In this document: positions 1,499-64,000 of the stretch, piece after piece
Position numbering within the stretch: position 1 is the stretch's first letter
Layout: each line of letters opens with the position of its first letter
IMG/VR virus record: IMGVR_UViG_3300005043_000001
Location: 1-64,000 of that record
DNA length: 64,000 bases
DNA from: a virus
Direction: 5' to 3' (one strand)
Notes under the pieces: generated by a model
Databases searched by the model: none
Seen by the model: only the letters and a program-made list of their open reading frames with translations
Told to the model about the DNA's origin: nothing
Program-made: the position numbers and the translations under genes

Positions 1499-2767
1499 AT
1501 GGCACATAGTAGAATAGGGCCAAGTGCTGCTAAGCGATGGATGAATTGCACAGGCAGCATAGACCTTATACAATTCCTTAGATCACAAGAAAAAATACCC
1601 CTGAAGAGTCCTACAAACAAGGCTTCGGAACTGGGTACCGCTGTCCACTATGTGGGTGAGCAAGTCCTACTAAAAACACGTCGCGTTAACCAGTTTAAAA
1701 ATATTCCTGTTAAAGTTGATGAGATGAAGTTTCCTGTGTTGCTGTCCCAAAAGAATTTGGATGATGCACAGGCTTACGTAAGCTTCTGTAGGAAAGCAAA
1801 GGAGCAGCACCCTGGTAAGATGGTAGTCGAAGAGACTTACGACCTTAGTAAGGTGTATGACGCCCCAATAGGCGGCACGACTGACTGTAGTATCGTTGGC
1901 AGAGTGCTACAAGTAATTGATTATAAGAATGGAGCCTTTCCTGTTTACGCAGAGGGCAACCCACAAATTATGATCTATGGCTTAGGTGCCTATTATAAAT
2001 ATAGAAAGGTGAAAAAGATTCGCAAAATTCGCCTTGTTATATTCCAACCAAACGCCCGTGATAAACATGGCCCCGTTCGTGAACACACAATGCACCTTCA
2101 TGAATTATTGAAGTGGGAAAAAGAGGAATTAATCCCTGCACTAGAAACTATCAAAAGTGGTAAAGGTGTGCTAATACCTTCCCGCGAAAACTGCATGTTC
2201 TGTGAAGCTAAAGGGTTTTGTAAGGCTCTTAAAGAACAGAAACCAAAACTTGTCAAGGATATGATTGTAAGTTCTTCGCTTATACCAATGCTTGATTCAG
2301 GTAGTTTGCCAAACCCAGAAGAGTTAAACGAAAAAGAATTGATAAGTGTTTTACAAAACGCCGATCATGTAATAGAATTTTACACAGCTTGTAAGAAACT
2401 TGCCAAATCGAAACTTGAAACCAACAAGACTGCCTTACCTGGCTTCGGACTAAGACCAAACCTTGGGAACCGTAGTTACCGATCTGACAAGATTCTTACA
2501 AGCACCCTAGAGGAGTACGACGTATCCTTAAGGAGTATAAAGGTAGCAGCCAGCGAACGCTTCATGACTGTTCCCGAATTAGAGTCGTATGTAAGTACTA
2601 CACTAGAATGGGATAAGGATGATGTTGAAGAGTTCATGGATAAAGTTACTACAAGAAAGGTATCTAGCCACGCGCTAGTCCCTGTCTCTGAGGCAGCAAA
2701 TGATTTTGCCGAAGCGATGAAATCTAATCCGAAAATCAGAAAACGACGTAAAAAGGTAATAAGTTAA
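1499..2767 (+). CDS. DUF2800 family protein, Cas4/RecB-like nuclease
   Basis: The 422-residue protein starts with the family hallmark: a Ser-Ala-Trp motif and a cysteine near residue 17 (GPSAAKRWMNCTGS, where most members have CPGS). A PD-(D/E)XK core follows at about 124-144, with GTTDC and then VIDYKNG supplying the acidic and lysine residues. A C-x2-C-x5-C cluster (about 231-240) together with the first cysteine could hold an iron-sulphur cluster, as in Cas4 and AddB. In phages this family sits in replication or recombination modules, as here with DUF2815 and PolA. The nuclease role is inferred from motifs. The leader can hide its ribosome site. Confidence 0.85.
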   Translation: MAHSRIGPSAAKRWMNCTGSIDLIQFLRSQEKIPLKSPTNKASELGTAVHYVGEQVLLKTRRVNQFKNIPVKVDEMKFPVLLSQKNLDDAQAYVSFCRKAKEQHPGKMVVEETYDLSKVYDAPIGGTTDCSIVGRVLQVIDYKNGAFPVYAEGNPQIMIYGLGAYYKYRKVKKIRKIRLVIFQPNARDKHGPVREHTMHLHELLKWEKEELIPALETIKSGKGVLIPSRENCMFCEAKGFCKALKEQKPKLVKDMIVSSSLIPMLDSGSLPNPEELNEKELISVLQNADHVIEFYTACKKLAKSKLETNKTALPGFGLRPNLGNRSYRSDKILTSTLEEYDVSLRSIKVAASERFMTVPELESYVSTTLEWDKDDVEEFMDKVTTRKVSSHALVPVSEAANDFAEAMKSNPKIRKRRKKVIS

Positions 2768-2768
2768 T

Positions 2769-3617
2769 ATGGCTAATCCATTTAAAGTTCTACTTGGTTC
2801 TAAAGGTTCTCCGGTACGTTCTTCATTCATGTTCGTTCGTGAATTGCAAGAAGATGAGCATGGAAATAAAAAGTGTAAGACTGGTATCCTACTTCCCAAA
2901 TCCGACACTGCCACTTTTAAAAAGATGGTGAAAGCAGTTAACGCTGCGGGACAAAAGAAGTTTGGTTCGAAGTTCAATGTTAAAACCACTAATAAAAATG
3001 TGCCATTTCGGGACGGTGATAAACTTGCCAAAGATCCTGACAGTTCGGTGGGCAAAGAAGCCAAAGGGCATTGGGTTCTAACTGCTATTGGGTATAAGCT
3101 ACCTGATATTCAAAACCGTAAAAATGAAAAGATTATTGATGACGACGAGATTGAAGAAACAGCCCGCTCGGGTAACTACTTCCTAATCAGCGTTACTTTT
3201 AAAGGTTTTGAGAAAGGCGGTAATTCTGGCGTTCGAACTGAATTAAATAACATCATGTATGTCAAAGAGGGCGAAGCTCTTGATGGTTCAATGAGTGGTG
3301 AAGATGAATTCCGTGAACACGCCATGGATGATGACGAAGAGCTGGATGAAGACGGAATGAAAGCGCTTTTCAAGAAGGCAAAGAGTGCCGACAAGAAAGC
3401 CGCTAAAAAAGCGTTAAAGGAAACGGGTGAATCCTCAATTGGTGAAGTTGATGAAGAGGATTACGAAGACCTAGCTGAAGCACTTCGTGAAATAGTTGGC
3501 GAGGAAGAAGAGGACGAAGAAGAAGAGGATGACGAAGAAGAAGAAGAAGAAGAAAAGCCTAAAAAGAAAAAGAAAAAGTCTTCTGACAAAAAGTCCTCTC
3601 GCCGGTCTCGCCGTTAA
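2769..3617 (+). CDS. DUF2815 family protein, probable ssDNA-binding protein
   Basis: This 282-residue protein starts one base after the DUF2800 stop. The first 170 residues resemble DUF2815, a family found next to DUF2800 and PolA in phages and thought to bind single-stranded DNA. From about residue 180 it becomes strongly acidic, with long runs of Glu and Asp. It then ends in a lysine/arginine/serine tail (about 255-282). An acidic tail followed by a basic tip is unusual. A terminator follows at 3635-3666. Confidence 0.8.
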   Translation: MANPFKVLLGSKGSPVRSSFMFVRELQEDEHGNKKCKTGILLPKSDTATFKKMVKAVNAAGQKKFGSKFNVKTTNKNVPFRDGDKLAKDPDSSVGKEAKGHWVLTAIGYKLPDIQNRKNEKIIDDDEIEETARSGNYFLISVTFKGFEKGGNSGVRTELNNIMYVKEGEALDGSMSGEDEFREHAMDDDEELDEDGMKALFKKAKSADKKAAKKALKETGESSIGEVDEEDYEDLAEALREIVGEEEEDEEEEDDEEEEEEEKPKKKKKKSSDKKSSRRSRR

Positions 3618-3679: not shown

Positions 3680-5740
3680 ATGAAAATGAAATTGAACCCC
3701 AAAAGATATGAAGATCAAGTTTTCGTAGATATAGATTTCGAAACGAGGTCACTTGCCAACATCAAGGATGTGGGGGCAATGAAGTACGCCGAACACCCAT
3801 CGACACAAATGCTTATTGTGAGTTGGCAGTTTAGCAACAGTGACAGGAAGTATAGTTGGAACCCTTTTACTAGCAGGAGAAAGGCACCAACTGCACTACT
3901 AAGGGCCATACGTAGAAAGGAAGTTTTCCTACGCGCCTTTAACAGTGAGTTTGAATTTTGGATATGGAACCTTGTTTGTGTTCGCCAATTCGGTTGGCCG
4001 GAAATGAAAAACAATAGGTTCTATGATGCTATGGGCCAATCGGTTGCTTCTGCTTTCCCTGCCAATCTGAATGACGCCGCGTTGCGCTCTCGTGCTGCAC
4101 ACCTAAAGAATGAAGATGGAAAGGATTTAATACAGTTCTTCAGTGTACCTATAAAGGACACTACAGTATTTCGTGATCCTCGAATGTTCAAAAAGGAGTT
4201 CAAACAGTTTGTAGCTTATTGTGATGATGACGTTGCCGCGCAAAAAGCAGTATGTAATGCCACACCTGTACTAAGCCCAGCAGAACAAGACGTGATGTTC
4301 CTCACTGAAAAGATGAATGAGCGGGGCATACCTATTAATGTTGAGTTCGTTCGCAGTGCATTGAACATGGTTAATATTGCACAACGGCGAATGGATAAAC
4401 GTGCAAGGGCTATACTAGTAGAAACAGGTTGTCGTGGTGACTTCCATTCCCTTAGTCAAAGAGATGCTGTAAGGAACTGGGCGAAAAAACGGGGGCTCGA
4501 CATCCCCAACATGCAAAAGGAAACCATTCAAAACTTTATTGACGAGGATATTATAAGTGATCCCTTGGTTAAAGAAGTTTTACAAATGCGCCTCCAACAC
4601 GCTAAGACTAGTACTGCAAAGTATAGGACTATGCTTGCGCAAACTGACGTTAATGGTTTTATTCATGGTTTTATTAAGTATCATATCGCTAAGACTGGTC
4701 GTTGGGGCGGTCGTGGTATGCAGATACAGAATTTCCCCAAGCCTGGAAAGTCATTACCTAAAACTCCAAGTGACTGGAAAGAATATGATAAAGTTATTGA
4801 CCAGATCGTTAAAGCGATTGAAGACGAAGATGTAGATTGGCTGTTAGAATACCATCCCGACATAATGGAAATACTTGCTGGCTATTTGCGTGCTGCGATT
4901 CAAGCGCCAAAGGGTTACAAGTTTGTCAGTGCGGATTATGGCCAAATCGAAGCGCGGGTTGTTCTATGGATTGCCGGTTCCAAAAATGGCATGAAAGATT
5001 TTGGTGGTGATGGAAAAGTATATGAAGCAATGGCCGCTTCCATATATGGTCTGAACATAAAGAAGATCACCAAAGATAGTATCCACCGCTTCATAGGTAA
5101 GCAGACTGTACTAGGCTCCGGCTTTGGAATGGGTTGGGAAAAGTTTATCACATCTTGTTGGGATGTTGCACAGGTTCGCGTAGATAAGAAAACAGCACAG
5201 AAGGCGATAAATGGTTACAGGGAACGGTACTTTGAAGTAGTAGCCCTATGGAAAGCAGCAGAAAAAGCAGCCATGGAAGCTGTTCGCCGCCCCGGTAGAA
5301 GGGTAAAGGTTAACAAGTTTGTATCATACAAGATGCGTGGCAAGCATTTGTACTGTAAGTTGCCTAGTGGTCGTGAATTATGTTACCCTTTTGCATGTAT
5401 TAAAGATGCGAAGTACTTTAAGACTACAAAACCTCAACTACACTTTGAAGGAAAAGATTCTAAGACCCAACAATGGTCTTTGATGAAAACCTACGGGGGT
5501 TCATTAGTAGAGAACTTTGTACAAGCAATCGCAAGAGATATAATGGCCCATGGAATGTTCAACGCTGAAAAAGCAGGGTACCCCACAATATTCTCAGTTC
5601 ACGATGAAGCTGCTGCACTTGTTAAGAAGAAGTTCGGTAGCGTTAAGGAATACGAAAAACTCCTTTGCATCCTTCCACGTTGGGCTAAAGGCTGTCCAGT
5701 TGTCGCAGAAGGTTGGCAAGGTAAATACTACAGGAAATAA
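3680..5740 (+). CDS. family A DNA polymerase with 3'-5' exonuclease domain
   Basis: The 686-residue enzyme replicates the phage genome. The N-terminal DnaQ-like exonuclease starts with DIDFETRS (residues 17-24, the D-x-E metal site) and has a later YCDDDV motif near 178. The polymerase domain shows motif A SADYGQIEAR near 418, motif B with KQTVLGSGFGMG near 474 and motif C VHDEAAAL near 640. There is no 5'-3' exonuclease domain, as usual for this phage group. AGGA lies just upstream of the ATG; a second ATG two codons on is possible. The upstream terminator separates it from DUF2815. Confidence 0.95.
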   Translation: MKMKLNPKRYEDQVFVDIDFETRSLANIKDVGAMKYAEHPSTQMLIVSWQFSNSDRKYSWNPFTSRRKAPTALLRAIRRKEVFLRAFNSEFEFWIWNLVCVRQFGWPEMKNNRFYDAMGQSVASAFPANLNDAALRSRAAHLKNEDGKDLIQFFSVPIKDTTVFRDPRMFKKEFKQFVAYCDDDVAAQKAVCNATPVLSPAEQDVMFLTEKMNERGIPINVEFVRSALNMVNIAQRRMDKRARAILVETGCRGDFHSLSQRDAVRNWAKKRGLDIPNMQKETIQNFIDEDIISDPLVKEVLQMRLQHAKTSTAKYRTMLAQTDVNGFIHGFIKYHIAKTGRWGGRGMQIQNFPKPGKSLPKTPSDWKEYDKVIDQIVKAIEDEDVDWLLEYHPDIMEILAGYLRAAIQAPKGYKFVSADYGQIEARVVLWIAGSKNGMKDFGGDGKVYEAMAASIYGLNIKKITKDSIHRFIGKQTVLGSGFGMGWEKFITSCWDVAQVRVDKKTAQKAINGYRERYFEVVALWKAAEKAAMEAVRRPGRRVKVNKFVSYKMRGKHLYCKLPSGRELCYPFACIKDAKYFKTTKPQLHFEGKDSKTQQWSLMKTYGGSLVENFVQAIARDIMAHGMFNAEKAGYPTIFSVHDEAAALVKKKFGSVKEYEKLLCILPRWAKGCPVVAEGWQGKYYRK

Positions 5741-31931: not shown

Positions 31932-34351
31932 TACGCTGGGAACTCCCCAATTACCGCAAGCATGTCAGCTTGAGAAAGGATAGAAGGTATCAATACAATA
32001 TCATATATCAAGCCATTTAGGTCTAGTGAACTTGAAGAAGACAGCGCACCTATGAACACCCCTGTTGTGGTATTGGTATTAACCGCCATAGCTGTTTGAG
32101 TTGAGTTTATCACCCCGGCACTGTCATACATTTTTGTTTCTAATGTGGAGGCATTGAAAGTAACTACCATCGTTGTAATTACATCTTGAGGGAAGAAATC
32201 GCCTGTAGACGTATGCACATCCGATATTGAGCTGTTGCCTTGCATCCTAAGTTCAAAGCCGCTGTTTGTTTTTATCCCCATGGCATTACCAGTGTTAAAG
32301 TAAATACCTTCATTCGCAGCGTTGGATTTTCTCTCAGTTCTTACAATGAATGTCCAGTCTCCACTAGAAGGTATGGCTCCACCTGTGGGAACCTCCAACC
32401 TACCATCGGTATCATTGCCCCTTAGATTTATTGCACCTCCATCTAAGGTTACTCCTCTACTCGCTACAGGGAATGCATGGAAACCATTTCCTGACTGATC
32501 AAGCCAATCCACTGAAGGGGCGTTTACGCTTTGCCCTATACCCTTACGGAACCAAACTATAGGTGATAATGCCAATGTTGGTGAGGCATTGTGCTGCTCT
32601 GTTAGTACACTAGTAAACGTTCCATTCCCTATGCTATTTATTGCATACATTCTAAAGTCGTAGTCAGTGTCCGCTGCTGGCGCTGTAAACGCATGACTTA
32701 CTGTAGCCTGAGATGCTATAGGTATATCCGCTATTTCTACACCAAAGGTTCCCACCCCGGTTTCCCTTACCTGTATAACGTAGCTAGTTACTACAGGGTC
32801 AAAGACCAATGCGTCCCATGTTATTTGAAGCTGTGTTGACCCATCAGCTACTGCAAAGTTTGCAGGGGCTGAAGGTACAATATCTAGCAATGGTGTTTCT
32901 GTTAGTAAGCTTTCATTAGAAAACCCTACCGCAGATCTACCCCTAAGCTCAACCTCATATTCAATACCGTTCGTTAGTCCTGTAAATATATGGGATGTTT
33001 GAACATTTGTTTTTGTTACTACAGAACCATAACTACCCCCACTAGGCTTTATGCGTAACTGATAATCAATGATAGGTTCTGGCTTCTCATCAATGTCTGG
33101 TGTCAGATCCCAAGTTACAGTTAGTTGCTCTTCTTGCTCCGTTATTAAGGGATTCACCATTGCTAAGGGTCGTTGAGCCCAGAAATTTCTATTGCCATAA
33201 CCTACCGCTTCAAGGTAAGCCTCATAGAACTGTAGTCCCCTTTCTCTTTGTCCCGCTGCGTCAGTATGTAGATTTCCTACTCCCGCATAAGTCCAACTAT
33301 TATTAACGGGCTTGTAAACGCACATATGGTTCGCATCAGCCAAAGCCTGCATATCCTCTCTGATCTGATTACCATTAGCTGTTGCTAGTTCTCTAATGCC
33401 TCCTATTATGAAAGGAACCATGTTTAGGCTACTTTGCTTCGCATTAAATGTTATGCCGGTTCCATCCCTTAATGCATCTATAAAGCCTTGTGCTGCTGCT
33501 TGCCATTCACCAGGGTCTAATGTTCCGCTAAGCGTATCTGACTCCCCTTGCTGTAGTACTATAACTTCAATTTCGTTATCTGGGTGAGCAGCAAGAAACT
33601 CATTTATCATTAGTACAGTATAAAGGTACATTGAGCCCGACGGTGTAGCCCACTCTTGTGAACTCTGTGTAAATGCTGTACTACCATGCCCGCAAGGTAG
33701 TATACAAGTTCTCGCGTTTGTGTGCCGGACTCTGCCCCTAGACATAGCTTTTGCAAAAGTTAAACATGGGCCTGCGCTTGTTGGCCGGGTAGTCCCTGTT
33801 ATATCTGTTGAATTTGAGGAAGCGTTGCCATCTGTTGCATGATCTAAAGGCTCTGTAGCTATAACAAACCTATCCATGATATTAGTGTCATCAGCCTCAA
33901 AAGCGGAATGGTCTAACGTATATCTAGCACTCTTCCTGTACTGTAGTATGTTAGCATCCGGCACATCTAGTATAGGGTCATAACCTAACATTCCCGCACT
34001 CTCGTCTTCCCCGTTATGCCCCACAAGGTTAGACTGTCCTGCCATGACCTGTCCTAACATCCCTCCTAAGTTTGAATTGAATATGTACTCATCAAAAGCA
34101 GACATTATGAAAACACCGTTCTCAAAATAGAACCCACTTGCATTATTCTCGTGGAAAGTTTCTATCCATAAGCCTTCAGACGTAATGGTACCTTCAACCA
34201 ATACGCTATAATTCACATCGACTTTATCTGTTATGTAATACCAACCCCTAGAATTAATAGCGGCTGTTTCAGCCCCCACTACCGCAGTAAGCCGGAAGGG
34301 GGCTGACGTATCAGTTGAAGTGTATTCGACCCTCGTTTTTAATCCTGACAT
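31931..34351 (-). CDS. fibre protein with SGNH esterase, FnIII and LamG-like domains
   Basis: The 806-residue protein has an N-terminal adaptor-like region (1-95). An SGNH/sialate O-acetylesterase-like domain follows, with block I GQSN at 105-108, QQGESD near 265 and LHTDAAGQ near 361. Then come two fibronectin type III domains (about 395-590) and a LamG/concanavalin-like domain (about 595-806, WFRKGIGQ...WLDQSGNGFHAF). It probably removes acetyl groups from host surface sugars during adsorption. The residue three before the block V histidine is Gly, where Asp is usual. Confidence 0.82.
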   Translation of the reverse strand: MSGLKTRVEYTSTDTSAPFRLTAVVGAETAAINSRGWYYITDKVDVNYSVLVEGTITSEGLWIETFHENNASGFYFENGVFIMSAFDEYIFNSNLGGMLGQVMAGQSNLVGHNGEDESAGMLGYDPILDVPDANILQYRKSARYTLDHSAFEADDTNIMDRFVIATEPLDHATDGNASSNSTDITGTTRPTSAGPCLTFAKAMSRGRVRHTNARTCILPCGHGSTAFTQSSQEWATPSGSMYLYTVLMINEFLAAHPDNEIEVIVLQQGESDTLSGTLDPGEWQAAAQGFIDALRDGTGITFNAKQSSLNMVPFIIGGIRELATANGNQIREDMQALADANHMCVYKPVNNSWTYAGVGNLHTDAAGQRERGLQFYEAYLEAVGYGNRNFWAQRPLAMVNPLITEQEEQLTVTWDLTPDIDEKPEPIIDYQLRIKPSGGSYGSVVTKTNVQTSHIFTGLTNGIEYEVELRGRSAVGFSNESLLTETPLLDIVPSAPANFAVADGSTQLQITWDALVFDPVVTSYVIQVRETGVGTFGVEIADIPIASQATVSHAFTAPAADTDYDFRMYAINSIGNGTFTSVLTEQHNASPTLALSPIVWFRKGIGQSVNAPSVDWLDQSGNGFHAFPVASRGVTLDGGAINLRGNDTDGRLEVPTGGAIPSSGDWTFIVRTERKSNAANEGIYFNTGNAMGIKTNSGFELRMQGNSSISDVHTSTGDFFPQDVITTMVVTFNASTLETKMYDSAGVINSTQTAMAVNTNTTTGVFIGALSSSSSLDLNGLIYDIVLIPSILSQADMLAVIGEFPA

Positions 34352-43105: not shown

Positions 43106-44637
43106 TAGTCTTTTTCACTCTCGGTTTTTCCACTTACTTGGCTGGGTGTAGTCTTTTCACCCCCTGGAAGTTCTGTACTTTTACCCGTTATCTTCAGGTA
43201 TTCTTCAATATCCCACTTTTCCTGAGGGGAAATACCAAGTAATTGACGTAATTCGTTAATAGCAGGGTCATTAGGGTGTAAAACAGCACCGGACTTAGCC
43301 AAATCATTAAGAGCCTTGGTAATTGTCTCAACTTCGCTTAATTGAATCTCTTCCGGCCATACTTTGGGCCTTAGTGCCTCAGGAACACCGTTCATGTCCC
43401 AAACTGGCTTCCAAAGCTGTCGATCATACCCTGCGGCTTGCTCTTTTAGGCTGGATGATACTATAAGAAGGAAATTCTTACTGTTATCCTTAGATAGTGC
43501 TTGTGTACCTACTTTACCGGAACCTAATAGCAATTGCTGTACACCAATGCCCCGAGCTAGGTCGTGGGTCATTCTATCAATAGCATTGGCAATTTCACCT
43601 TGTGAGCTGCTTTGTGCTGTTAATAGGTTTAAATCCCACTGCTGTGCTTGAGAAGGTGTTACTGCACTACTTTTATCGGTATATATCGCAGAATCCATTA
43701 CCATACCCAATTTAGGGTTACGGATGTGGTTCGTGATAAAATTCTTTAATGGGGATAGGATTTGATCCTTCTGTTCAGGAGAGATGATCTTACGCTTCTG
43801 CATGTCATCTAGTACACTAAGTGGAGCCCGCCCCACTGGGATACCTCGAAGGTCGGTCTCAAAACCAAACCCCTCTAACTCCAAATAACGCGCTAATGTT
43901 TCCGCAGGCTTTACCAAGTGTCGGAATATCCCGAGACCTTCTGGCGAATCGGTTAGTGTATCATCCAATAAGTATACTAATTTCCATATTGGGATTTTGT
44001 ACTCTTCACTGGTAATAGGGTCACGTTGGGTTATTGCATCAATGTAACCGTCTTTATCTTGGTGCCATCGTTCTATAGTACTTTGTGGACGTGGCGCTAG
44101 GTCGAATAGTCCTATAGCACCATCCTCTCGTATTTTAGGTATCCACTGTTGCAGACTGAAGCCATGGAACCGATACATTGCACCCTTACGGACAGCATTT
44201 GCCCATGTGCGCTTCATATCTCCCATGATCGATACGGCTAGATCAGCGTACTTCTTTGCCTCCTCAGAGTCATTGGCTGGGGTAACCTGCCATTTCGCAT
44301 TAGAGAGCATGTTGAGGAAATACCGGACTCCTGCACCCACAATGGAAGTGTTGATCAGTATGTTCTGGTATGTCACATACTTGGCAGCACCTGTAAGTGA
44401 GGGGTTAGCCTCGTCAGAAGCAACCCAACCTTGGTAGATAGGCGCTCCTATCGTTCCGCTAATGTCCATTGGTTCTATGCCTTGCTTCTCCAACTCAGCA
44501 TTCACCTTCTCCATAGCACTGAAGTACGCTTCCTGGGAACCCTCCTTCATTACAGTGTTAACTAACGCTGCGTCGGCTTCACCCACTGATAAGCGCTGTT
44601 CCTCTGTCTGCGTAGTCGTTGTTGTCGTTTTCGTCAT
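43105..44637 (-). CDS. portal protein (DUF935-like)
   Basis: The 510-residue protein forms the dodecameric DNA channel of the head. It shows SIVGAGVRYFLNMLSNAKWQV, an AMYRFHGFSLQQWIP segment and the C-terminal GIGVQQLLLGSG and KEQAAGYDRQLWKPVWD of the Mu-type/DUF935 portal group. I chose ATG 44637, which has GAAGG eight bases upstream; a GTG nine codons earlier is weaker. The start overlaps the terminase end by 59 bases. Confidence 0.88.
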   Translation of the reverse strand: MTKTTTTTTQTEEQRLSVGEADAALVNTVMKEGSQEAYFSAMEKVNAELEKQGIEPMDISGTIGAPIYQGWVASDEANPSLTGAAKYVTYQNILINTSIVGAGVRYFLNMLSNAKWQVTPANDSEEAKKYADLAVSIMGDMKRTWANAVRKGAMYRFHGFSLQQWIPKIREDGAIGLFDLAPRPQSTIERWHQDKDGYIDAITQRDPITSEEYKIPIWKLVYLLDDTLTDSPEGLGIFRHLVKPAETLARYLELEGFGFETDLRGIPVGRAPLSVLDDMQKRKIISPEQKDQILSPLKNFITNHIRNPKLGMVMDSAIYTDKSSAVTPSQAQQWDLNLLTAQSSSQGEIANAIDRMTHDLARGIGVQQLLLGSGKVGTQALSKDNSKNFLLIVSSSLKEQAAGYDRQLWKPVWDMNGVPEALRPKVWPEEIQLSEVETITKALNDLAKSGAVLHPNDPAINELRQLLGISPQEKWDIEEYLKITGKSTELPGGEKTTPSQVSGKTESEKD

Positions 44638-46195
44638 CTTCTGCGCCTTCCAACACTTCCCCACCAGAAGGCAGGATCATTTGATTAGTTAACATGTCCG
44701 TAATAGCGTCTACTGTAGGATCAATTTGGTCATCATGCTTGTGGGACATAAGCGGCGAGAACTTACGAAACTCGGCCTTATACTCAAATATCCACTCTGC
44801 ATTAAGAGGTATCCAGACGTTCCCTATGTTGATCTGAGGGACGGCTCCGTATGCTCTTGTAACCTTATCCTTAAATCGTGTGATAGCGCCTATGGGTAAC
44901 TGGGTACTGTTCTTGATGTTCTGAATCAATGATGTACCAGAGGACTTCTCCTCCACCAGCACATCAGTTACCGCTATACCTCTAACATTAGCAAACCCTA
45001 CGATCTTATTCCAGAAATCAACTAATGTACTTTCTAACTCAGGTGCCTCTACTTTACCACGAAACTGGTCGAGTAGGAATATACCAAGAGTCGGGGAGTA
45101 ACCCCAAGCCTGGAACACTGTGTAATCGTTCTCCTCACCCGTTTTCTCTGCGGTGTCACAATATACCCGTATGAAGGATAGATCACTTGGCAGTACGTTC
45201 CATAGCTTCCAGAACTGGTCTTTAAAAATGGCACCACCCTTTGGCGATGGTGATTGATGATACTGGGAGGCAGTTGTGTAAGGATCTGCTTTGTCCATCT
45301 GATCTAGATCAGCTTGAGTGTGTTTAAAGGGCCACAATGGCCCCTCATTCAAGTCATACGGAATAGGGATGCCATGGGTGTACTCTTTTGGGTACCAGTC
45401 TTCTATACGGCCTTTAGGGATAGGCGATGGTAAAAACAAATGGTGCCACATCTCCCCGGTTCCACCCTGTAGTAAAAAGCCGGTTGGGTCGTCCTCGTGG
45501 ATACGCTGCATGATTAATATCATGGGCGTGTGACTCTTCCTGGCAAGGCGTGAATGGAAGGTGTTCATAAAACGTTGGTTGATTTTATTACGAACCGTTT
45601 CCGAAAAAGCATCGTCCGGTTTTATCGCATCATCAATTATGAAGGCACCCTGAAACCCATCCTTAAACTTTCCGGCACGAAACCCAGTGATAGGCCCACC
45701 GGATGCTGTTGCATAAACTCCACCACCATGCTCTGTGTACCATTTCTTTTTGGCGTTCGAGTCCATCCTAATGCGGGCCTCAAACATCATTTGGAATTCT
45801 GGTGTTTCAACAATGTCCTTAGTCTTCTGAGAATTTTCTAGTGCAAGTTCATCCGAGTAAGTGGTGTGAATAAACTTAGCACCTGGATTAATCGCTAGGC
45901 CACGAGACATGAAAAAGATTACTGCAAGTTCTGTCTTAGTGTAGCCAGGAGGTACGTTTATTATTAGTCGTGTAATCTCACCCTTGATCACCCTGTCTAG
46001 CGTTTCAGCCATTAGGATGTGATGGGGAGATACTTGAAACTCCATCGCGTCTCTTACATTAAAAAAATACCTAGCATAGGCTAGGTTGTCAGTAAGTAGA
46101 TGGTGCCGGAGCATTCGGATTTCGTTGGGCGTCCATATGACATCCCCGTCGTCCGTAATGTCAGACTGTTGATCTGGTGTCCATATAGCGCCCAT
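44579..46195 (-). CDS. terminase large subunit
   Basis: The 538-residue protein packages DNA. The ATPase has Walker A VPPGYTKT at 81-88, the GGPITGFRAG turn at 166-175, Walker B AFIIDD at 184-189 and a coupling segment LIMQRIHEDD at 227-236. The nuclease has D347 in VYCDTAE, a second acidic cluster near 405-417 and HDDQID at 488-492. AGGA precedes its ATG inside the stop region of a 31-codon gene. Two other genes upstream repeat some of these motifs. Confidence 0.95.
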   Translation of the reverse strand: MGAIWTPDQQSDITDDGDVIWTPNEIRMLRHHLLTDNLAYARYFFNVRDAMEFQVSPHHILMAETLDRVIKGEITRLIINVPPGYTKTELAVIFFMSRGLAINPGAKFIHTTYSDELALENSQKTKDIVETPEFQMMFEARIRMDSNAKKKWYTEHGGGVYATASGGPITGFRAGKFKDGFQGAFIIDDAIKPDDAFSETVRNKINQRFMNTFHSRLARKSHTPMILIMQRIHEDDPTGFLLQGGTGEMWHHLFLPSPIPKGRIEDWYPKEYTHGIPIPYDLNEGPLWPFKHTQADLDQMDKADPYTTASQYHQSPSPKGGAIFKDQFWKLWNVLPSDLSFIRVYCDTAEKTGEENDYTVFQAWGYSPTLGIFLLDQFRGKVEAPELESTLVDFWNKIVGFANVRGIAVTDVLVEEKSSGTSLIQNIKNSTQLPIGAITRFKDKVTRAYGAVPQINIGNVWIPLNAEWIFEYKAEFRKFSPLMSHKHDDQIDPTVDAITDMLTNQMILPSGGEVLEGAEDDENDNNDYADRGTALISG

Positions 46196-46199
46196 GGTG

Positions 46200-46295
46200 T
46201 TATTTCCTTCTTGGCTCTGTTATTAATACACCCGGCTTCTGCTCGGTACCTTTTTCTTTTTCTTCTTTTGCTTTTTCCTCTTTACCACTCGACAT
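46200..46295 (-). CDS. 31-residue lysine/glutamate-rich protein
   Basis: A small frame starts in a TAATG overlap with the terminase-like gene at 46295 and ends five bases before the large terminase. Its sequence is almost all Lys and Glu at first, then GVLITEPRRK. It may serve mainly to couple translation. The coupled start and the lack of gaps support it as real. Confidence 0.5.
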   Translation of the reverse strand: MSSGKEEKAKEEKEKGTEQKPGVLITEPRRK

Positions 46296-46756
46296 TATAA
46301 ATCATCCTCGTGTATTCGTGTTTGCATTACTACTATAGGAGCATCCTTATCTAGACGTTTTATCATAGTGTCCATGAATCGTTTATTCATGTTCACCCTG
46401 TCATCATGTATATCATCTACAATAAGAATCGTAGGCTTTGCATTGCCCATGCCTCTTATGTTCTGACGCCTCCATTCCTTTTCAGTATTCGCAGGTGCCG
46501 GGGCTTGATGATATTGGCTTGACCAAGTACCCTCCATTTGTTTGCGGCGTTCCTCGGGGTCTATCTTCCCTATGATCTCCAGAAATTCATCCTTAGTATT
46601 ATTACCCCAGTCCCATACTACAGTTTTCTCTGACCCCTCCTTAGCAGGATCAACTCCTACCATTGTAGGTACTTGGTCAAACACGTCAGTGATCCTTTTG
46701 GCAAATTCTTTTTGGCGATCTTTAGTTAACGGGGTACTTTGTGTAATAGTAGGCAT
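46295..46756 (-). CDS. terminase-like protein with motifs in altered order
   Basis: The 153-residue protein resembles parts of large terminases. GVDPAKEGSEKTVV (34-47) is like the first nuclease strand. SSQYHQAPAP (79-88) matches SQYHQSPSP of the large subunit. ILIVDDIHDD (110-119) and VVMQTRIHEDD (142-152) match the Walker B and coupling segments. In the large subunit the ATPase motifs come before the QYHQ segment; here they come after it. Walker A is missing. It may be an accessory packaging protein or a rearranged remnant that stayed open. Confidence 0.6.
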   Translation of the reverse strand: MPTITQSTPLTKDRQKEFAKRITDVFDQVPTMVGVDPAKEGSEKTVVWDWGNNTKDEFLEIIGKIDPEERRKQMEGTWSSQYHQAPAPANTEKEWRRQNIRGMGNAKPTILIVDDIHDDRVNMNKRFMDTMIKRLDKDAPIVVMQTRIHEDDL

Positions 46757-46758
46757 AT

Positions 46759-47151
46759 CTATTCCTGTAAGCTCGGCTTGTCATCTAGTATAGGATAAAG
46801 AATGAAACATGGTGTCATAGGACAAAGGCGGGGAAAGTATAAATCGAAATGCGCTATGTTCACATCGTACATTATAAGCGCACCTTGAAACCCTTGCCCT
46901 GCTCTGCGACCTGCTTGGTGACCCGAGACAGGACGCCCCGCCAACATAACTCGAATCGCTCCTTTATGTTTTGTAATAACAGTATTCACTTTCGTGGCAT
47001 GAGGGTTGATCATCTCTTTCAACTCATGCCTTAGTGAGTCTACTAGCGTAGTCTTTTGTTTCTCCGTTGCTACTACCACTAGGAACCAACATGAAGGGTT
47101 CTTAAACATCTCGCTAGTAATGTAATCGCTGATCTCTTCTAAATTTCGCAT
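46759..47151 (-). CDS. terminase-like ATPase-core fragment protein
   Basis: In this 130-residue protein GRPVSGHQAG (72-81) and GFQGALIMYD (87-96) match GGPITGFRAG and GFQGAFIIDD of the large terminase with the same spacing, and the preceding 50 residues fit that region. Walker A and the second catalytic acid are absent (MYD in place of IDD). It starts in a TAATG overlap with the gene at 47151. It could be a regulatory relative or a remnant. Confidence 0.6.
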   Translation of the reverse strand: MRNLEEISDYITSEMFKNPSCWFLVVVATEKQKTTLVDSLRHELKEMINPHATKVNTVITKHKGAIRVMLAGRPVSGHQAGRRAGQGFQGALIMYDVNIAHFDLYFPRLCPMTPCFILYPILDDKPSLQE

Positions 47152-47684
47152 TAGTATCTCGAATCAAATTTCTTTTGAAACAGTCGCACTTCTTTACTTG
47201 TCAGCGGCTGCACTTTTTGTACTGTTAATTCCCCACTCACCTGCACATTGCGTTTCTTCGAGTGAACATATTCCGCGATCTGTTTCGCTGCGGCTTGTGA
47301 CTCTTGTAATGTTACCGGGGCTTCCTCATACTCATTTTCGATCATATACACCAAATCCTCCCAATAATGAGAGTGAGATGGGGGTGCGTCGTCCTGGTAA
47401 TGGTCTTGTATCAATTTCAGGTGCGTATAAATGTTCGAATTCCGGCGCGGGTCGCGTCCTGACATGATCGTTGCAAGAAACTCTAATGGCATGGGGGTGC
47501 CGGTCTCCTCACACATATCAAACACTTTCTTCTCTACATCGTCCATCGCTTCTCTATCCACACTCTGTATGGAACTATCAAGCGCGGCGTCAGCGGACGC
47601 GGGGGCTGTAGCCTTTCTGCGTCTTCGCTTTTTGGGCTTCTCCGGTTCTTCTTTAATTGTCTTCTTACGTCGTCTGATTGCCAT
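47151..47684 (-). CDS. probable terminase small subunit
   Basis: The 177-residue protein is the first gene of the minus-strand operon. The basic start (RRRKKTIKEEPEKPKKRRRR) could bind DNA. MPLEFLATIMSGRDPRR followed by a helical stretch resembles the core of some small terminase subunits, and the C-terminal ELTVQKVQPLTSKEV is a usual oligomer-type tail. Position supports the call; sequence support is moderate. Confidence 0.6.
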   Translation of the reverse strand: MAIRRRKKTIKEEPEKPKKRRRRKATAPASADAALDSSIQSVDREAMDDVEKKVFDMCEETGTPMPLEFLATIMSGRDPRRNSNIYTHLKLIQDHYQDDAPPSHSHYWEDLVYMIENEYEEAPVTLQESQAAAKQIAEYVHSKKRNVQVSGELTVQKVQPLTSKEVRLFQKKFDSRY

Positions 47685-47745: not shown

Positions 47746-48303
47746 AATTGGGTTATATACCACTTTCTTGGTGGCGAAGCGGATGGGGTGTTTTAGGTGT
47801 TAGTATAGTAGTATTTAGAAGGGGGGTGCTGGTGCCCTGGGGGTGGGATTGTTTGATTGAATTTGCGTATATAAGTACTACAGTATTAATGATTGGTGTT
47901 ATTTTTTAAAAATTATTTTTGTATATACGAATTCGTGTATGTAAGTACTATAGGGGGGTTCCCGTGACTAAACGTGACTGGGTAGTCATATCTAGTCTTG
48001 TACGAAATATAGTTTTTGTGAAGTGAAACCCCCCAGATCCCCCCTACCCCCTTCCGTAAAATCGCGTTTGGCCCTTGAGTGACCGTACACCCCTATCAAT
48101 CCATCATCTGTATGTATCTATCATTCTCTCAACCTCCTCAATGTGTGATTACATTATGGCTTAGTACTACACTATTGTCAATCATTCATTTAGTATCAAT
48201 CCTCTTTATGTATGTGTATGTCTATCCCCCGTCTCAGTACACACATAGTACTACAGTAGCATTCAGCACGTCAATGATTCATTTCATTTATTACTATACA
48301 TAC
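47746..48303. other. divergent control region, no gene seen
   Basis: About 560 bases separate the late and early operons. I see G-runs (about 47819-47848 and 47955-47960) and a C-rich stretch (48029-48051). There are two similar AT-rich segments with TATATAAGTACT or TATGTAAGTACT (near 47869 and 47938) and a small palindrome ACGAATTCGT between them. A 92-codon frame on the plus strand here is rich in rare low-complexity sequence and lacks a ribosome site. The region may hold an origin or a packaging start, which is unproven. Confidence 0.5.
48029..48051 (-). other. G-tract cluster, possible G-quadruplex
   Basis: The minus strand carries runs of five, six and six Gs separated by two and four bases. 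The long runs could each supply two tetrad edges. It lies in the divergent control region. Confidence 0.4.
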
Positions 48304-62978: not shown

Positions 62979-63240
62979 CATAGGACGTAAAAAAGAGTTT
63001 GAAGAATGGTTGGAAGGTAAGCCACAAGTAATACTTGATCTAGCAGAGAAGCTAGAGCCCTGGAATAGATACAGGGTAAAGAAGACAGGACAACACTGTC
63101 ACTTAATTTCCTATTTTGAAGATGGTACTGTTACCATTAACATCTATGGACATGACGACGAAATCAGAGACGCAATGTATAAGACGATGCCTATACATGT
63201 ATTTGGGATTAAGCCGGAAGATTTAGAAATAATAGAATAA
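62971..63240 (+). CDS. hypothetical protein
   Basis: The 89-residue protein overlaps the end of the gene before by eight bases. It starts with a charged helix (KKEFEEWLEGKPQVILDLAE) followed by strands (HLISYFEDGTVTINIYGHDD). No family is recognised. Confidence 0.62.
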   Translation: MDSIGRKKEFEEWLEGKPQVILDLAEKLEPWNRYRVKKTGQHCHLISYFEDGTVTINIYGHDDEIRDAMYKTMPIHVFGIKPEDLEIIE

Positions 63241-63808: not shown

Positions 63809-64000
63809 ATGTCAGAATTTGCAAAGTTTATAGAAAACCTATTTAGTAACACGCCAGAGCAAATAAAGCCAGATGCTGTACTAACCCGAGAACAACTGCT
63901 AGAAGTTTACAACCCTACTGATTTTATGCCTATTACACTAAAGCATTTGATTGAGTTAATGGTTGCAGCAGATAAGCACATGGATTTAGCTGATAAGTTT
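63809..64000 (+). CDS. hypothetical protein (partial)
   Basis: Sixty-four codons run from ATG 63809 to the window edge with no stop. The start (SEFAKFIENLFSNTPEQIKP) is acidic and helical. It follows the previous gene by four bases. No family is recognised. Confidence 0.6.
   Translation, partial: MSEFAKFIENLFSNTPEQIKPDAVLTREQLLEVYNPTDFMPITLKHLIELMVAADKHMDLADKF

Follow-up and report, generated by a model that had tools for sequence, protein, structure and literature searches.

Between the genes for the small (TerS) and large (TerL) terminase subunits of the phage analyzed here we found two intact genes, designated P1 and P2, that are made of TerL pieces, as an earlier note on this DNA had claimed; a TerL HMM identified P1, P2, and TerL itself and nothing else. 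We put the probability at roughly 0.45 that P1 and P2 are accessory genes derived from TerL and maintained for an effect of their products on the packaging motor in trans. The pair is a real and unusual variant with a putative function and is apparently undescribed; such genes were not found described in the literature searched, the coverage of which was partial.

Genome context and arrangement of the genes

The window (the whole stretch of DNA analyzed, 64,000 nucleotides) corresponds to bases 1-64000 of a contig of 74,374 bp from a 22-contig assembly. The ends of this contig share a 99-bp overlap, and the join is crossed with 100% identity by an IMG/VR record of this phage; the contig is therefore a complete phage map, circular and ~74.3 kb long. 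Tail, portal, endolysin, polymerase, and helicase genes all appear intact. The independent UViG 3300029867_000007, an IMG/VR record of this phage, is interrupted at 46852 (within P2, right after its TerL-like part) and at 63118 but is otherwise 100% identical; no repeat of at least 12 bases was found at the 46852 break. Two other features of the sequence were recorded. The motif TAGTACTAYA, which has a palindromic core, occurs 15 times in the window compared with 0.55 expected from shuffles (e.g., at 48162-48171, 48246-48255, 1449-1460, and 33552-33563), and copies of the related AGTACTACA crowd the intergenic region at 47.7–49.1 kb. In addition, the part of contig C9 after position 64000 (L009) encodes a TerD-domain protein (1434-2021; Pfam E-value 3e-23) beside TerC (2220-3074; 2e-37) in a phage genome.

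TerS, P2, P1, TerL, and the small ORF before TerL are all on the complementary strand. TerL (44579-46195) is intact, its 538 residues running from Walker A (PPGYTKT) to the C-terminus, and it matched PHROG 38 (E-value 5e-100) and was 66% identical to that of Pseudomonas phage KPP23/RSP (ORF078 in KPP23). TerS (47151-47684; 177 residues) gave a weak match to PHROG 641 (terminase small subunit; E-value 0.024) and had 39–45% identity to the gene that immediately precedes TerL in relatives including KPP23. In the KPP23 annotation the gap between TerS and TerL is 25 bp. At 20 loci with TerS homologs found in a first scan the gap from TerS to the TerL match was ≤58 nt, with one exception (170 nt), and at 38 loci retrieved with a TerS alignment as the query, some of them on the same contigs, the distance was ≤62 nt except in the phage L110, described below. 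An apparent gap of 876 nt in L120 was an artifact of a split TerL, the ATPase half of which adjoins TerS. Since TerS and TerL adjoin in KPP23 and in almost every relative that has this TerS, we regard the P1/P2 region as an insertion. Apart from split TerLs and short downstream pieces in L118 and L140, there were no TerL-like fragment ORFs at the other loci. An unrelated 74-residue ORF lies between TerS and TerL in L034 (2265-2489) and the spacing is similar in L035 and L036, suggesting that the junction may accept small genes; the TerS proteins of these three loci are more distant from that of the window.

P2 (46759-47151; 130 residues) overlaps TerS by 1 nt, P1 (46295-46756; 153 residues) follows P2 after 2 nt, and the stop of P1 overlaps by 1 nt a highly charged ORF of 31 residues (MSSGKEEKAKEEKEKGTEQKPGVLITEPRRK; 46200-46295) that ends 4 nt before TerL and had no Pfam match. 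CGAGGA is found upstream of the 31-residue ORF and AGGA before P1, and each ORF has both a start signal and stop-start coupling. The mean in-frame codon scores were 0.18 for P1, 0.03 for P2, 0.17 for TerL, and −0.10 for TerS; out-of-frame controls averaged −0.27 and none reached the value of P1 or P2, while that of P2 was low among in-frame late-gene segments. With these overlaps and coding-like scores, the earlier proposal that the two genes are open and translationally coupled held up. A six-frame search of the insert with the TerL profile matched only the P1 and P2 frames and detected no remnants elsewhere; the broken frames, or remains in other frames, of a TerL pseudogene are absent from P1 and P2, and no relative was found with frameshifted copies of either gene, which the note had named as the sign of decay.

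Segment composition of P1 and P2

The TerL HMM was built from 87 TerLs and run against the 328 ORFs (read from stop to stop, minimum 60 residues) of the whole contig, where it matched only TerL (1e-232), P1 (7e-8), and P2 (3e-5), the next ORF having an E-value of 0.34. P1 and P2 scored 25.9 and 17.1 bits, respectively, whereas the best of their shuffled versions scored 8.7 and 7.5 bits; none of the 5000 shuffles made of each protein reached its score. As had been noted from the sequence, the GxPxxG...GFQGA block is in one gene, P2, and QYHQ, VDD, and RIHEDD are in the other, P1. Walker A was said to be missing from both and we found it in neither, the ATPase-core matches starting past it at profile positions 139 (P2) and 194 (P1). 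No non-terminase family outscored the TerL profile, the other outcome that the note had said would refute its reading. The best such matches were weak: P1 to the Pfam family DUF7294, an assignment that was rejected (E-value 6e-4, a score short of the family cut-off, and no counterpart in 12 related phages), and P2 to an internal-virion PHROG (0.01).

P1 consists of a linker segment followed by a Walker-B/helix/coupling-motif segment, which inverts the TerL order. TerL positions 291-309 align to P1 residues 72-90 (46487-46543; TWSSQYHQAPAP), identified with a linker HMM, and positions 194-229 to residues 119-153 (46298-46402), the TerL helix and coupling-motif segment, which ends in RIHEDDL-stop (TerL HMM domain E-value 5e-6). 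The claim that QYHQ precedes the ATPase motifs was borne out, as it occupies residues 81-84 while VDD (Walker B) is at 113-115 and RIHEDD at 147-152. Each of the two segments is significant on its own; because the QYHQ stretch alone matched a linker-only HMM (E-value 3e-6 as one sequence, with none of 3000 shuffles doing as well), chance does not account for the altered order. Residues 119-153 have 35–43% identity to aligned TerL segments and retain R120, R126, R134, and R147, which are invariant columns of that alignment, and P1 is no nearer to its own TerL than to other TerLs. The structure model of P1 was poor (pLDDT 58, pTM 0.29), and its N-terminal ~50 residues received no supported assignment; a tautomerase-like match (E-value 0.021) was weak and was dropped. 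A VGVDPAKEG stretch considered as a nuclease motif was equaled by 550 of 3000 shuffles and was rejected as unsupported, and a nuclease sub-HMM gave no supported match to P1, since 1184 of 3000 shuffles scored as well. Reading through the stop of P1 would add 2.7 bits of TerL match across lysine-rich sequence, which we took as chance.

P2 consists of a TerL-like ATPase-core piece and an unrelated 33-residue tail. The piece spans from after Walker A to the Walker-B strand and contains GRPVSG...GFQGA, with residues 52-96 (46864-46998) corresponding in the TerL HMM to TerL positions 139-182 (GGPITGFRAG...GFQGAFIIDD). Its Walker B is IMYD, the first acid being gone, compared with the retained VDD of P1. 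As both proteins hold the Walker-B strand region, their coverage of TerL overlaps and is not divided between them. P2 matched its own TerL by BlastP with an E-value of 5e-7 in a single comparison, the first 60 residues by themselves were not significant, and the nuclease sub-HMM gave a marginal match (9 of 3000 shuffles, E-value 0.004 as one sequence). An AlphaFold2 model made with TerL segments as the alignment had pLDDT values of 91–95 for residues 11-70 and below 50 for the tail, and in this model, partly guided by the TerL rows, the region is predicted to form the after-Walker-A part of the ATPase core. Its PDB matches included the terminases 8dgc_E (the best, E-value 0.038) and HK97 6z6d, with weak E-values.

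A related ORF in another phage and searches for homologs

A counterpart to the C-terminal part of P1 was present at the same junction in L110 (IMGVR_UViG_3300024265_000310), the TerL of which is 67% identical to that of the window; P2 had no counterpart there. The TerS-TerL interval of L110 contains a sole open frame of 60 residues (3889-4071; MTNPIKYPIIIDD...IIIQSRLHKDDSLI-stop), which begins 4 nt after TerS (ending at 3884), overlaps the TerL start (4068), and encodes a Walker-B/helix/coupling segment matching TerL HMM positions 178-228 (E-value 9e-8 as a single sequence). It shares 12 of 35 identical residues with P1, only the C-terminal third of P1 being in common, and like P1 it is no nearer to its own TerL than to other TerLs; the top PHROG match of both was PHROG 4758. 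Both have the coupling motif after Walker B, as TRIHEDD in P1 and SRLHKDD in the L110 ORF, and they end close after it, one residue past RIHEDD and three residues past RLHKDD, respectively. Before HxDD both have Q-T/S-R compared with MQR in 75 of the 87 TerLs, the window's own included; IMQ precedes the R in these 75, and IQT does so in one distant TerL. In a TerL tree the window phage and L110 fell within a seven-member clade (support 100/99) but were not sisters, and with fragment ORFs in only two of the seven phages at least two changes are needed on the tree, either one old gain and several losses or two gains.

Further searches identified no other relatives of either gene. By tblastn, neither P1 nor P2 had a match at E-values up to 1 in 50,697 phage records, nor did P1 in 72,556 plasmids; when viral contigs were scanned with P1, P2, and TerL singly, the same phage alone was returned, and relatives of P2 were found in none of the phage records, viral contigs, or junction loci. 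A scan for the inverted order (QYxQ-N186-RxHEDD) returned the same phage and two bacterial chance matches with translations that were not TerL-like. Among 54 host relatives there was nothing at an E-value of 0.001, only weak matches.

Possible function and alternative explanations

TerL is described in the literature as a ring with active sites at the subunit interfaces, and the D6E terminase has a trans-acting arginine finger, R158, between alpha3 and beta4 (PMC5727402). A profile search matched no solved terminase by sequence that would pair R158 with an arginine of P1. We propose that P1 would fold as the Walker-B strand/helix/coupling-strand unit of the ATPase, the unit common to P1 and the L110 ORF probably being the arginine-finger part of the D6E fold, and that P1 might dock at the TerL subunit interface or on TerS. 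Docked P1 would then tune motor assembly or ATPase activity, as a helper or a brake; a free P1-like copy, lacking Walker A, could bind a neighboring TerL and thereby promote or block ring assembly. P2, made together with P1, would supply a further piece of ATPase surface, and neither protein is expected to hydrolyze ATP alone. The trans-acting reading draws on both products being TerL-like, open, coding-like, and coupled, on the invariant arginines kept in P1, and on the L110 ORF at the same junction. It is weakened by the patchy distribution (two of seven), the lack of a relative of P2, the lost Walker-B acid of P2, the poor model of P1, the TerL-guided model of P2, and the assumption in our simulation that divergence followed fragmentation. 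We consider it less likely than not that such genes represent a new class of small TerL-derived proteins encoded at the TerS-TerL junction, in which linker and ATPase segments have been re-ordered into a new protein that inserts in trans at the interface of the TerL ring and controls the assembly of the packaging motor or its ATP hydrolysis.

The explanation we take most seriously besides accessory genes is that the pieces are what remains of a second TerL, a module exchange having left part of another TerL that was shuffled by deletions and rearrangement; this has a real chance of being correct, though short of even odds. The frames would be open because the event was recent or the pieces are short, and L110 would represent a different stage of this event or of one like it. 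Phages exchange terminase modules among themselves, and the pieces are internal, permuted, patchily distributed in the clade, and devoid of Walker A or nuclease, with the catalytic acid of P2 lost. In a neutral-decay simulation in which TerL was decayed to the observed identities (indels, start sites, and motif retention were not counted), the chance that the frame stays open was ~0.33 for the C-terminal segment of P1 and ~0.27 for the L110 ORF, so these short segments may each be open by luck, while that for P2 was ~0.04. The joint chance of ~0.004 is conditional on the three segments being independent and on all divergence following fragmentation, and it therefore puts selection only modestly ahead of decay. 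Retention of conserved columns was dropped as a sign of selection, as neutral decay from TerL gives a similar pattern, and retention of the motifs is partly an ascertainment effect. Against remains of a second TerL, there are no frameshifts and no TerL-like sequence in other frames, each ORF has start signals and stop-start coupling, and the piece terminates at the same motif in two phages. In the part of TerL that is most conserved, moreover, the pieces are no more than ~45% identical to any TerL, so that a recent event would require a donor distinct from all TerLs of the phage collection.

Other explanations are much less probable. Avs-type STAND proteins bind TerL, and the PDB chain that best matched the P2 model, 8dgc_E, is TerL in complex with Avs3; the pieces might accordingly imitate the TerL surface seen by the Avs1-3 host sensors and blunt or titrate the sensor. 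We think this improbable, as the match shows only that a model itself built from TerL rows is TerL-like, such a mimic could equally trigger the sensor, and the late-operon position between TerS and TerL suits packaging better. It is very unlikely that selection acts on the DNA, e.g., on a site within or close to the terminase genes at which packaging starts, with the proteins being incidental: packaging sites are often in or near the TerS gene, but the codon bias is of the coding type, the similarity to TerL is at the protein level with no notable DNA similarity, and the region has no Rfam match. Equally slim are the chances of an assembly artifact joining two phages within P2. The break of UViG 3300029867_000007 at 46852 leaves the N-terminal join of P2 resting on one assembly; however, both records hold P1 and the P2 tail, there is no repeat at the break, P2 is a coherent coding frame across 46852, and the contig closes on itself (99-bp overlap).

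If P1 and P2 are selected as accessory genes, they would be natural dominant-acting motor pieces made by the virus itself and a ready probe of TerL ring assembly. They would also reveal which surface of the motor is open to regulation in trans, the means by which a phage holds back or promotes packaging, and the capacity of terminase segments to yield new functional proteins on re-ordering. As relics, the two genes would document an exchange of terminase modules where TerS and TerL meet.

Comparison with known terminase systems

Like TerL of the KPP23/RSP type (PHROG 38), P1 and P2 have segments of the ATPase core and linker (GxxITG...GFQGA, QYHQ, VDD, and RIHEDD). In contrast to TerL, they have no Walker A or supported nuclease, are two ORFs adjoined by a complete TerL, and depart from the ATPase-linker-nuclease order, the linker coming first in the inverted P1, and Walker B is damaged in P2. 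Judged by sequence, P1 and P2 fail as members of TerL in Walker A, nuclease, and order. Split TerLs (an ATPase half of PHROG 4758 and a nuclease half of PHROG 5573) likewise have terminase domains on separate coupled genes, but their halves are together complete and in order, with no whole TerL present, whereas P1 and P2 are incomplete and permuted and a whole TerL is present at 44579-46195. Split TerLs occur with this TerS in most of L118-L144, as an ATPase ORF of ~295 residues and a nuclease ORF of ~255 residues with overlapping ends (e.g., L121, 3805-4692 and 4649-5428), and the QYxQ linker belongs to the nuclease half. The third terminase subunit of herpesviruses (pUL33/pUL51) is a terminase-complex protein thought to help assembly (PMC9611059); P1 and P2 would work alike if the accessory reading is right. 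The herpesvirus subunit is not TerL-derived and has no known sequence relation to them. The nearest thing to P1 and P2 is the L110 ORF, which, although it has no linker segment, N-terminal part, or accompanying P2, occupies the same junction, consists of the Walker-B/helix/coupling segment, has Q-T/S-R as in P1, and has an RxHxDD end.
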